DNA from: Blumeriella jaapii
Lineage: Eukaryota > Ascomycota > Leotiomycetes > Helotiales > Drepanopezizaceae
Reading direction: 5' to 3'
DNA length: 64,000 bases
NCBI GenBank assembly: GCA_009599575.1
Contig: VWND01000069.1
Location: 434,001 to 498,000 of the forward strand
This document shows positions 24,446-35,952 of this stretch, piece by piece. The notes under the pieces were generated by a model, which made no database searches, was not told where the DNA came from, and saw nothing but the letters and a program-made list of their open reading frames with translations. Each line of letters begins with the position of its first letter. Position 1 is the first letter of the stretch. A program made the translations under genes and the position numbers.

Positions 24446-26175
24446 ATGACTCGCCGAACGAAGAAGAAGAGTGGTACCGTTTTAGGCAATGATCGGTCGC
24501 CACTAACTATCAACACTTCCACATTTAAGAACACGAAGAGGAATTTCAAGGTCGCGGCGCGGCCGCCACAACCCTCGGTCGAGATAGACATCTCGGACTC
24601 CTCCGAAGATGAGCTTGCACGTCAAGTCGCGCTGCCTGCCCGACCAGCAAAGAAGACTTCTATCACCGATTCCCGCAAACAAAAGGAGATGCTTAGTACG
24701 CTACAAAACACGGCCGAATACCTCTCCTCGTTAGGAGACGAAAAAGAGATCGAACGAATCATGCAACTTCCTGGTTCTCGGAACAACGAAGCACTTCTGA
24801 AACATCGAGCAACACTTTTGGATTTGCTAGCTAATAAGTCAGAAGTACACCACGAAGTCCCTGAGACGCTTGGCTTATACGATCAATACTTTGCGCATCA
24901 AGGGCCCAACAAGCAACTCTACATCTTGCGCCCCGTCGAGTAAGTTAATCAAGCTGCAACAAACATCCCAAAAACTGCTCATGAAACGTGTACTGATTTT
25001 CCGTCCTCTAGAGTCATCCAAGGCAACACCAACCTTACTCGAGGCAAGGTTGCAGGCTTCATCCGACACAGCGCCTCCGAGTTTCCTCTGAAGTACGCTC
25101 TTCCGGGCTGGGTTCCATGCCACAATGATCACCCTAACGTATTGAATTCCGCCTTCTGGACTGACGAAGCTCAACGTTGGGGAGAATTTCACAATCACAA
25201 GTTCCCAAGCCACCCCTTTGAGCAAAAGCATGGAAAGGCCAAGGGCCATGCAAGCGCCAGCCACGTGGAAGTCCGTCTGATGCTTTGGTTCGCTTGTGAG
25301 AAGTTGAAGCAGCTGCAAGGCTATAATAAGCCCATCAGAGCTCTCTTGGGCGAGGCAAGCAAAGTCCGATCCCGATTGTTACGAGCGTCGATAACTGACT
25401 TCTTGTGTAGTTGTGGCGTTTGCGTGACTATGACGAAACAGATCAAGCCGAGATCTTCCTTACGAGAGAGCCATGCGACGCTTGTAAAGAGATCAAGAAG
25501 CTCATTGAGGAATATACACGCATCTCCTTCGTCATTCACATTATGCCGAACTTGGGCGTGCTCGAGCCTAAGAGAAAATATGGCTGGGTCACATTCGACA
25601 ATTTCGCCCCCAACCCCGAGAACGAGGCTGAGAGCGATGACGAGCCCCGTGGCTTCAGCGAAGACATTCGTCTCGATTCCATCCAAGGCCGCAGCCATAG
25701 AATCGAAGTTGTCGAGCGCGAGAAGACAGTCGAGAGAATTGAGAAGTTCAAGAAGGCCACCGGCGCTCGCAGCTCTGCTAAGACTGCTATAGAAGTCATC
25801 ATCCCAGCCCGAAACAATCCCGCTGAATCTTCATCCGTAGACTCAAGTCCCGCTCCACGCCGTCAGACTAAGAACCCAAGCTCGGTGTCGACTACTACGA
25901 CGTCTATCACCCGCCACATTCGAGGCTTCTCATACCAACCCGCCCACGCCATCGAGTCGGAATCCGAGGACCCAGAGTACCTGCCACCTGATATTCGGCG
26001 TCCCAAGACTTCAAAGAAAGCTGCTCAGTACGGCCTCCCTATGCCCCAGGACAGTCCTTTCTCGGCTCAAGCACGCAAGCAAGCCGAGCTCTTGAGGAAA
26101 CAGAAACAGAAGAGAGCCAGAGATCGGGGACTTTCGGGCTCTAGCTCTACCAGTGCGGCCAAGAAGTCACGCTAG
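24446..26175 (+). CDS. Deaminase-fold protein (HVE / PCxxC), function unknown
   Basis: Three exons (24446-24939, 25012-25354, 25411-26175) give about 533 residues. The central part holds both zinc signatures of the cytidine deaminase fold: His249-Val-Glu251 in a helix start (SHVEVRLMLWFACEKL), then EPCDACKEIKKLIEEY with Cys301 and Cys304, followed by FVIHIMP. Spacing and order fit a deaminase. The N-terminal 160 residues are basic, Ser-rich and partly helical. The C-terminal 180 are Ser/Lys-rich with nuclear-localisation-like basic runs, suggesting a nuclear protein. The second intron is either GC-AG (25355-25410, donor GCAAGC, branch AACTGAC) or GT-AG with a weak donor (25364-25410); both keep frame. 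The substrate (nucleotide or nucleic acid) is unknown. Proteins of this sort occur in filamentous ascomycetes, but I know none characterised. Confidence 0.72.
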
Positions 26176-33754: not shown

Positions 33755-35952
33755 ATGATGGCCTCGCAGTCACTGCCATCGCCATGTCTGCGCTCTCGAT
33801 TTCTGTGCGTTGCTGACGCTGCCGCGAACGATTTGTCCCAAGCCGCACCCCTCCCTCGGCGGTCCAGCTTCGAGCAATTCTGTCAGCAGGTCTCTGGAGG
33901 GAGCATCGGCGCTTGGGAGATGGCTCAGATCATAACCTTATGCTCGGTCCTACCCGGCCTTTGGTGGCTTCGAAGCCGGCGGAGAATATCGGCATCTGTC
34001 ATCGCCGAGTCATCACAGGACGAATCGAAGAACGGACACAGCATCGTCGAGGCTCATGGCAAGTCTTGTGCTCTTGCATGCTGGGGAGGAGCTGTTGTTG
34101 ACTGCTGCCAGATGCCGACATTACGGACCCAGGGCTTCTCAAGAAGCACTCGGAACTGAGATCGTATACCACACGCCGGTTCACGTATCCGAAGCTTCGA
34201 ATCTTCTATCGCAATCATCCACAAGCAGACAAACTCCCTACCGACCCTGCGCCGCTCCCCCTTCTTGTGTGCATCCACGGCCTCGGCGGATCAGTGGCCC
34301 AATTTCATCCACTCTTGACAAGCCTTGTCAACTTAGCACCATGTCTTGCCGTAGACTTGCCCGGTTGCGGTCTCTCCGAGTTCGAGCCAGAGGCTTGGGG
34401 TGCATACACAACCGAAGCATTGGCGGAGTTGCTCGAGGTGGTCATCGAAGACTACAGACAGAAGACACAGGGGGTGGTCCTTATCGGGCACAGCATGGGG
34501 GCGTCCCTGGCGGCGATGCTCGCATCTACTGCCACTGCCCACCCTTTCTCCGAGCATGTGGTTGGGGTCGTGGGAATATGCCCCAAGGCCGACCCTCCGG
34601 CAGAAGAACAAGTGGCAGCTATCAGAAAGCTCCTCTGGGTACCAGGCCCCATCTTCAACCTCTGGCGACGATGGGATCGCCGCGGGGGAGCGGAAAGCGC
34701 CAGTGTCCATCGATTTGTGGGAGCCGATGCCGATGAAGAGACCAAGCGACTCCAGTATCGCTTCAACGAACAAAGCCGGACTCCGGTCTGGAGGCGCATG
34801 GCCAATGGCACACTACCAGTGTTCGAGAACCATGTAGCGAAAGGGGGGCTTCCTGGGAGGAGAACCTGGGCTGGCCTCGAGGTGCCCGTGTTACTTGTAG
34901 CGGGAGAAGCCGACCACATCACCAAATCGAGCGAGATTGAAAAGATTGCCGGCTTCATGGGGAAATCACATCCTGTTCACACCGAGGTCCGCGATGGTAG
35001 CCATGCTGCTGTCGAAACAGCAGTCTCAGTGGATGCGGCAAGTGAGCAACGAAACGAGCTTGGAGGGCGAATGGAAGATCTGGAAGAGACCACAACAGCA
35101 AGCGAGGATGCACATGAAAACCCTTCGACGCCAACGGACGAGCCCTCAGTCATCCCTCCCCAATGCTCCAAGCCAAGGAAAGTTCTCAAGACCACGGTCC
35201 TCCCAGCGCCTGCATCGCACGCCCTCTTGTATCAACCGGCTACCGTGAGAATTCTGGCGGGCCTCGTATCGGACTTTCTTCAAACTCAAGTCTCGCCACG
35301 TCTCTCGCTAGGCTGGCAATTGCAATTCTTGTCTACGTCTGGGAAATGGGACGTCAAGAACTTGGAGAAGTGGAAAAAGGTTACTCCCGTCTCTGAACCA
35401 ATTGGTGGTGTCTTTCGGGCCATGAAGACTTTGCGAGAGGTTGACGAGACTCACTGCCCCGAAGTCTTTGTGAAGGACTGGGGATCTCAGATCAAGGATA
35501 TCGTGGACATTTCCCACGAGAGTCCTGTTTACGATCCGCGAGGTCTAGAGAATGGTGGCGTCCATTATCACAAGTTCCCGACCGTGTCTAAGGTGGGTTT
35601 TTGGTTGCTAGTCGCGCGAACAAGCACTGACTCTCAGATGCAGATCCCTCCCACTGACGAGGAGGTTGCAGCCTTCACTACGGTTGTTGATCGCCTACGC
35701 GAAGAGCAAAGGGCGAGAGCAGAAACAGAAGGCTGGACAGAAGACCATTACATCGGCGTTCACTGCCACTACGGTTTCAATCGCACCGGCTACTTCCTGG
35801 TATGTTACCTTGTTGAGCGGCTGGGGTACGATGTCCAAGTGGCCATCAACGAATTCGCCCGCCAGCGGCCCAAGGGCATCAAGCACGTTCATTTCAGGGA
35901 TCGGTTGTTCCTGAAGTTCTGCCGCGGCTTGAAGAGAGCTCCCACGTTGTGA
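33755..35952 (+). CDS. Alpha/beta hydrolase fused to a CX5R (capping-enzyme-like) phosphatase domain
   Basis: Three exons (33755-34058, 34112-35592, 35638-35952) give about 699 residues. Residues about 150-400 are an alpha/beta hydrolase: oxyanion loop HGLGGS, nucleophile elbow GHSMG (Ser229), acid region GEADHI, and His in DGSHA. A linker of about 80 polar residues follows. The C-terminal domain ends in VHCHYGFNRTGYFLVCYLVE, the HCx5R phosphatase loop (Cys about 638), followed by INEFARQRPKGIKHVHFRDRL. That arrangement is close to the metazoan capping enzyme/DUSP11 RNA triphosphatase group rather than ordinary dual-specificity phosphatases. The first intron is GC-AG with donor GCAAGT (34059-34111); the second is 45 bp. 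The start (33755 or 33758) is uncertain; a hydrophobic segment precedes the first intron. Confidence 0.8.

Follow-up and report, generated by a model that had tools for sequence, protein, structure and literature searches.

What does a capping-enzyme-like cysteine triphosphatase do in a fungus, and what does its fusion to an alpha/beta hydrolase imply? This question is raised by a gene of Blumeriella jaapii (GenBank assembly GCA_009599575.1), located at positions 33755-35952 of a 64,000-nucleotide stretch of contig VWND01000069.1 (positions 434,001 to 498,000; C67:434001-498000 in the searched genome of 47.37 Mb and 91 contigs), hereafter called the window. RNA triphosphatases are described as metal-dependent in fungi and as cysteine-type enzymes in animals and plants (PMC4791841 and PMC2904801). 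The gene is real and is a single gene encoding a hydrolase-phosphatase fusion. The analyses presented below suggest, with a probability of roughly 55%, that its product is a membrane-anchored serine hydrolase combined with a metal-independent cysteine 5'-triphosphatase, which would act on triphosphate RNA outside nuclear capping.

The gene and all features given below lie on the + strand. The frame of the spliced protein comprises the open reading frame (ORF) 34102-35952 and an upstream exon from 33755, which is a plausible translation start. Introns were placed by comparison with annotated relatives, and the resulting model has three exons and a product of 697 amino acids. Of the eight sequences compared, P0001 is the window's own frame before splicing; in the other seven, S-K-I-P-P spans the second join and D-P-G-L-L follows the first. 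Exon 1 (33755-34058; splice model, hydropathy and identity) would encode the variable N-terminal extension through a hydrophobic segment and a basic stretch, and would be followed by intron 1 (34059-34111, 53 nt, GC-AG), whose join agrees with the homologues. The donor of this putative intron, GCAAGT, would belong to the minor GC-AG splice class. Exon 2 (34112-35592), which is uninterrupted, covers the hydrolase and the linker together with the N-terminal half of the phosphatase, and exon 3 (35644-35952) encodes the P-loop and the C-terminus, with the stop codon at 35950-35952 (both exons from the ORF and the splice model). Between them, the predicted intron 2 (35593-35643, 51 nt), across which the homologues read SK-IPPT, is in phase and stop-free and is therefore invisible in the raw frame. 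Since no stop codon interrupts exon 2 between the hydrolase and the middle of the phosphatase, the fusion is a feature of the DNA itself and not a product of annotation.

Of the 7998 candidates scored in the protein search, 1749 reached E<=1e-3; the evaluation covered the best 120 of these and the best 120 of 1811 matches. Both the hydrolase and DSPc were found in the Pfam column of 111 of the 119 relatives listed besides the window's own protein (counted by eye), and the pairing of the two domains is not due to chance. Among the matches listed, full-length relatives are 54-80% identical, and the best named one comes from Drepanopeziza brunnea, a helotialean Leotiomycete (80%). Full-length fusions are present in at least six classes of Pezizomycotina, namely Leotiomycetes, Sordariomycetes, Dothideomycetes, Lecanoromycetes, Sareomycetes and Candelariomycetes (lineage checked for one example each); the best 120 matches do not bear on presence or absence in Eurotiomycetes, yeasts and basidiomycetes. 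Of six segments measured, the linker between the domains (residues 497-519; 35296-35364) shows the highest conservation, with a mean identity to the window protein of 93% (119/119 rows), compared with 70% for the hydrolase core, 74% for the phosphatase (117/119 rows) and 26% for the N-terminal extension (38/119 rows covering half of it). This conservation of the linker suggests that the two domains have been kept together for a reason. Scans of viral and prokaryote contigs, each with two peptide patterns and thus only a weak negative, gave no relative. One sequence, P0142, is filed in a metagenome bin of Terriglobus roseus; it comes from a 6.5-kb contig, shares 59% identity with the Coniosporium copy and is probably fungal contamination of the bacterial bin.

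The C-terminal half (residues 520-697; 35365-35949, split by intron 2) was assigned with profile, Pfam and Foldseek searches to the capping-enzyme-like cysteine triphosphatases. When a profile of nine family members was searched against solved structures, four mRNA capping enzyme sequences took the top ranks (1.3e-24 to 1.1e-21), and the alignment with the capping enzyme covers profile positions 18-177 of 186, including the PVAGxFxxLKT N-terminal stretch. Next came the baculoviral polynucleotide 5'-phosphatase 9h2j/1yn9 (1.0e-16 and 1.1e-16), then PIR1/DUSP11 (5.0e-15 to 5.2e-15), DUSP23 (1.8e-9) and CDC14B (4.7e-7), with receptor protein tyrosine phosphatases (PTPs; from 2.9e-6) and PTEN (from 2.9e-4) lowest. 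In the reverse search, the triphosphatase domain of the mouse enzyme 1i9s gave the fusion gene as its top match in the genome (2.7e-10, confined to the P-loop exon), the other two matches having E-values of 2.0e-5 and 0.0047. In Foldseek, human RNGTT (2c46; 30% identity) ranked 15th, and apart from its three chains none of the 50 rows shown was a phosphatase; the VIA-align rows displayed lie over the hydrolase (residues 48-450 of the model of homologue P0002) and barely test the phosphatase. Pfam DSPc matched all nine family members scanned (best 1.9e-12). For the gene of the window, it scored 31.1 bits in the unspliced frame (2.4e-7; cut-off 33.5) and 34.0 bits, above the cut-off, in the genome search, as the seventh of eight places. 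A reading of the locus made earlier from the letters alone (the sequence-only reading) had likened this half to the capping enzyme/DUSP11 group because of the loop HCHYGFNRTG and an R-P-x-G-I block. Both are present in the protein (the latter as RPKGI), and the profile search, in which other PTPs and lipid phosphatases rank below the capping-enzyme group, supports the assignment together with the reciprocal search and the structural match.

Compared with the metazoan capping enzyme (Mce1/RNGTT; 1i9s, 2c46), the fungal protein has in common the PVAGxFxxLKT-like stretch, the Asp of VDLT/IDIS, the G-F-N-R-T-G loop and R-P-x-G-I, but it has HY for TH after the catalytic Cys and His for Lys after the GI block, and it carries, in place of a guanylyltransferase domain, an esterase-like hydrolase and probably a membrane anchor. 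DUSP11/PIR1 (4jmj) and the baculovirus RNA 5'-phosphatase (1yn9) belong to the same enzyme group and likewise stand outside any capping enzyme, whereas only the fungal protein is fused to a hydrolase and has His where DUSP11 has R192.

Catalytic residues were followed in a set of 205 sequences, i.e. 204 fetched or translated proteins (including P0001 and P0121, the latter an exon-1 piece, both of the window) and the spliced window protein. The P-loop HCHYGFNRTG (35761-35790) contains Cys636 and Arg642, conserved in 113 and 112 of the 119 relatives, respectively, the rest being mainly gaps. The pattern HCX5R[T/S]G occurs in 189 of the 205 sequences (two of which are the window's own), with the loop reading HYGFN in 185 and HYGYN in 4; it is missing from 16 sequences, comprising 7 truncated predictions, 8 short fragments and P0121. 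Asp567 (IVDIS; 35506-35508), which was found as D in 186/189 sequences with a simple pattern, is aligned with the VDLT Asp of capping enzymes, a residue important in Mce1 (D66). The P-loop motif of cysteine RNA triphosphatases is given as HCX5R(S/T) in a passage of PMC2904801, and an excerpt of PMC9038691 states that MCE1, DUSP11 and the baculovirus enzyme lack the WPD motif. No W-P-D was found in the consensus of the nine family members, but the corresponding loop contains a near-invariant Glu. His676 (35884-35886; H in 187/187 readable sequences, 2 unreadable) is placed opposite an Arg in 1yn9/9h2j and a Lys in capping enzymes, and comparison of the 9h2j alignment and of the PIR1 letters around R192 likewise gave His at the position of the DUSP11/PIR1 Arg. 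A role in taking off the second phosphate has been proposed for R192 of DUSP11, which capping enzymes lack (excerpt of PMC12058148). The His in its place predicts that the phosphatase domain cleaves the gamma phosphate only, and on account of this residue a strict DUSP11 orthologue was rejected.

The N-terminal half carries an alpha/beta hydrolase domain (residues 106-496; 34123-35295), delimited with Pfam (Abhydrolase_6, 6.3e-21) and with residues 58-451 of the P0002 model. The sequence-only reading had described a full triad context composed of HGLGGS, GHSMG and DGSHA. The first two are indeed present in the spliced protein, but DGSHA does not supply the triad histidine. It lies in a low-complexity insert (residues 393-455; 34984-35172; 31% mean identity), whose equivalent in the P0002 model (337-398) has a predicted local distance difference test (pLDDT) score below 50, and the column of its His contains E, Q or K in 99/119 relatives, H being outside the five commonest letters. 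DGSHA was rejected as the catalytic histidine because its column is not conserved and His471 (PASHALLY; 35218-35220), 72 residues further on, is invariant. All three putative triad positions, i.e. the nucleophile Ser229 (GHSMG; 34492-34494), the acid Asp369 (GEAD; 34912-34914) and His471, are identical in 119/119 relatives, and in the P0002 model the hydrolase fold is completed by the segment that follows the disordered insert. Both the fold and the Ser-acid-His triad of alpha/beta hydrolases were thus found, and this half is predicted, from sequence and model, to be a serine hydrolase of the esterase/haloperoxidase type with the triad Ser229-Asp369-His471. The best solved hydrolase found by sequence had an E-value of 4.4e-8. 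Solved esterases and haloperoxidases (4uhd, 1va4, 1a8q) are alike in fold and Ser-Asp-His triad, but their identity is about 16% and the fungal protein has a disordered insert between the acid and the His. Some relatives are named 'related to peroxisomal serine-active lipase'. Peroxisomal targeting was rejected: the C-terminus is PTL in 138/205 sequences, which under the rule for the type 1 peroxisomal targeting signal (PTS1) is not a PTS1.

Upstream of the hydrolase, hydropathy points to a candidate membrane anchor at residues 54-71 (WEMAQIITLCSVLPGLWW; 33914-33967), followed by RSRRR. A 19-residue hydropathy scan (KD19) with a cut of 1.6 was applied to 74 sequences with a long N-terminal extension. 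The cut was reached in 43 of them, in some through a signal-peptide-like stretch nearer the N-terminus, and in 52/74 the charge is more positive after the hydrophobic segment than before it. The P0002 model has a predicted helix (2-25) at its N-terminus. On these grounds, the protein may plausibly be anchored in a membrane and have its two enzymes in the cytosol.

Is such an enzyme needed for capping? The same genome contains a Cet1-type triphosphatase (PF02940, 7.7e-35, contig C73, its two matches lying together) and one guanylyltransferase match (PF01331, 4.4e-48, contig C3), so that the fusion protein is not required for this process. The expectation of the sequence-only reading that fungi use another triphosphatase therefore held for this genome. 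The Cet1-type enzyme (triphosphate tunnel) would carry out the same proposed reaction on 5'-triphosphate RNA, but it is encoded separately, is metal-dependent and belongs to a different superfamily (PMC4791841). Within frame 34102-35949 (exon 1 lay outside the scan), PF01331 was not among the Pfam matches at E<=1 and PF02940 was not among the Pfam matches. A strict mRNA capping enzyme was rejected, as the protein is without a guanylyltransferase domain and the sole match to one in the genome is on C3. Five relatives (P0042, P0064, P0073, P0099 and P0145) are named 'mRNA-capping enzyme' and their listed Pfam domains include no guanylyltransferase. These names are misleading, because the Cet1-type enzyme and the guanylyltransferase are encoded separately.

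In the reading that we favour, Cys636 in a metal-free P-loop would attack a 5'-triphosphate, most likely that of uncapped RNA, at its gamma phosphate, a cysteinyl-phosphate would form, phosphate would be released and a 5'-diphosphate would be left. RNA is the most likely substrate because the nearest solved relatives are RNA enzymes, and the presence of separate Cet1-type and guanylyltransferase genes makes it probable that the enzyme works outside the nuclear capping step. The cysteine-phosphatase step itself is established chemistry of the enzyme family, as set out in a section of PMC2904801. Ser229 would cleave an ester or similar bond, and triphosphate RNAs outside capping, e.g. products of RNA-dependent RNA polymerase (RdRP), RNA polymerase III (Pol III) transcripts or mycoviral RNA, may be processed at the membrane surface. 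RdRP matches were found at three places of the genome (two contain one in-frame TAG, possibly an intron), as were Piwi matches (one with one in-frame TAG, possibly an intron), which suggests that triphosphate small RNAs could be present. Several observations weigh against this reading: (i) only about 30% of the residues agree with those of the human enzyme, (ii) the P-loop is HC-HY-G-F-N-RTG and not the HC-TH-G-x-N-RTG of the capping, 1yn9 and PIR1 enzymes, (iii) 7 of the 119 listed relatives, apparently truncated predictions, are without the full P-loop, (iv) the KD19 maximum of the window protein is only 1.33, below the cut, and 31/74 long-extension sequences also remain below it, and (v) a near-invariant Glu (E554 of P0002, 49 sequences; E602 in the window protein) lies in the PTP general-acid loop, so that a different chemistry is possible. 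A more far-reaching version, in which the protein would form a second membrane-tethered RNA 5'-end pathway beside Cet1, with the gamma-triphosphatase acting on RdRP, Pol III or mycoviral ends and the hydrolase first stripping a 5'-linked acyl or ester group or tethering the enzyme to a membrane substrate, all as one machine, we consider improbable.

Other explanations differ in substrate. The capping-enzyme fold might now serve a small pyrophosphate or phosphoester (an inositol pyrophosphate, a nucleotide or a phospholipid headgroup), with the hydrolase deacylating the same metabolite in a two-step enzyme. The sequence-only reading had already proposed two steps on one ligand, for which the strong conservation of the linker is the only evidence. 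The highly conserved linker suggests such a coupling, and a lipid substrate would go well with membrane anchoring. In addition, 9/9 members give weak matches to PTPlike_phytase and related PTP profiles, and AtPFA-DSP1, which is without the WPD acid, cleaves inositol pyrophosphates (excerpt of PMC9038691). However, RNA triphosphatases match better than the other groups by orders of magnitude, and among 20 of the 22 other long frames, which were scanned, no neighbour points to such a pathway; we regard this explanation as possible but rather doubtful. That the phosphatase half acts on proteins as an atypical dual-specificity phosphatase (DSP), as 'tyrosine specific protein phosphatase' names imply, is unlikely: matches to Pfam DSPc and, weakly, to Y_phosphatase would fit, but the best solved matches are RNA enzymes and the G-x-N-R-T-G loop differs from that of four DSP-like genes of the genome (L001, L002, L003 and L006; three more, L004, L005 and L008, are not readable by the loop pattern).

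A role as a back-up or specialised capping triphosphatase, feeding 5'-diphosphate RNA to the guanylyltransferase, keeps RNA as the substrate. It would agree with the closest solved relative being a capping enzyme and with the predicted gamma-only cleavage (His for R192), which would give the substrate of the guanylyltransferase, but with the Cet1-type enzyme present, a probable membrane anchor and no guanylyltransferase domain in the protein it appears highly improbable. The chance that two adjoining genes were merged, or that the assembly or annotation is in error, is close to negligible. Eight of the 195 sequences of at least 500 aa are without the exact HCHYG[FY]NRTG, and some predictions end early, but the other 187 (the window's own counted in) carry it, and P0022, one of the eight, has the looser HCX5R[T/S]G. 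Merged genes were rejected on the evidence of the single stop-free exon covering the hydrolase and half of the phosphatase, and the separate transcripts that would have spoken against the sequence-only reading are thus not suggested by the gene structure.

The separate domains are known, and public records already hold the fusion with its domain labels, under generic or misleading names. In the titles and abstract openings found in the open-licence literature, which for one search were those of 10 out of 392 hits, a hydrolase-phosphatase fusion was not described, which is no proof of absence. The available parts of phosphatase surveys of N. crassa (PMC3931568) and A. fumigatus (PMC4502386) report 6 DSPs each and do not name a hydrolase fusion; gene identifiers of these surveys were not matched to the family. 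The occurrence of a conserved cysteine enzyme of the capping-enzyme group in at least six fungal classes, and in the present genome beside a Cet1-type enzyme, would make the division between fungi and animals or plants one of capping and not of gene content. If active on RNA, the protein would be a fungal counterpart to the DUSP11-type control of triphosphate RNA, and its likeness to capping enzymes may explain the 'mRNA-capping enzyme' names in databases despite the missing guanylyltransferase domain. The fusion to an esterase poses a directly testable question on coupled chemistry.

The remainder of the window contains 22 other long frames (4230-64000); of the 20 scanned, 13 match Pfam and none indicates an RNA-end-related cluster. 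Their matches include a short-chain dehydrogenase, Spt20, RNA12, a fragment of orotidine monophosphate (OMP) decarboxylase, Hsp70, an ILVD-type dehydratase, pieces of an ArAE_2_N/FUSC transporter, an aminotransferase, DUF1295, a WD40 protein and a response regulator. For a frame of 282 aa at 24944-25789 (+), solved structures gave no sequence match at E<=1, and the match to the SsdA_C deaminase family stayed below the cut-off (23.2 bits vs 27; 1.1e-4). The frame carries SHVEV and CSCGVC, which resemble HxE and CxxC, the zinc-binding motifs of deaminases.
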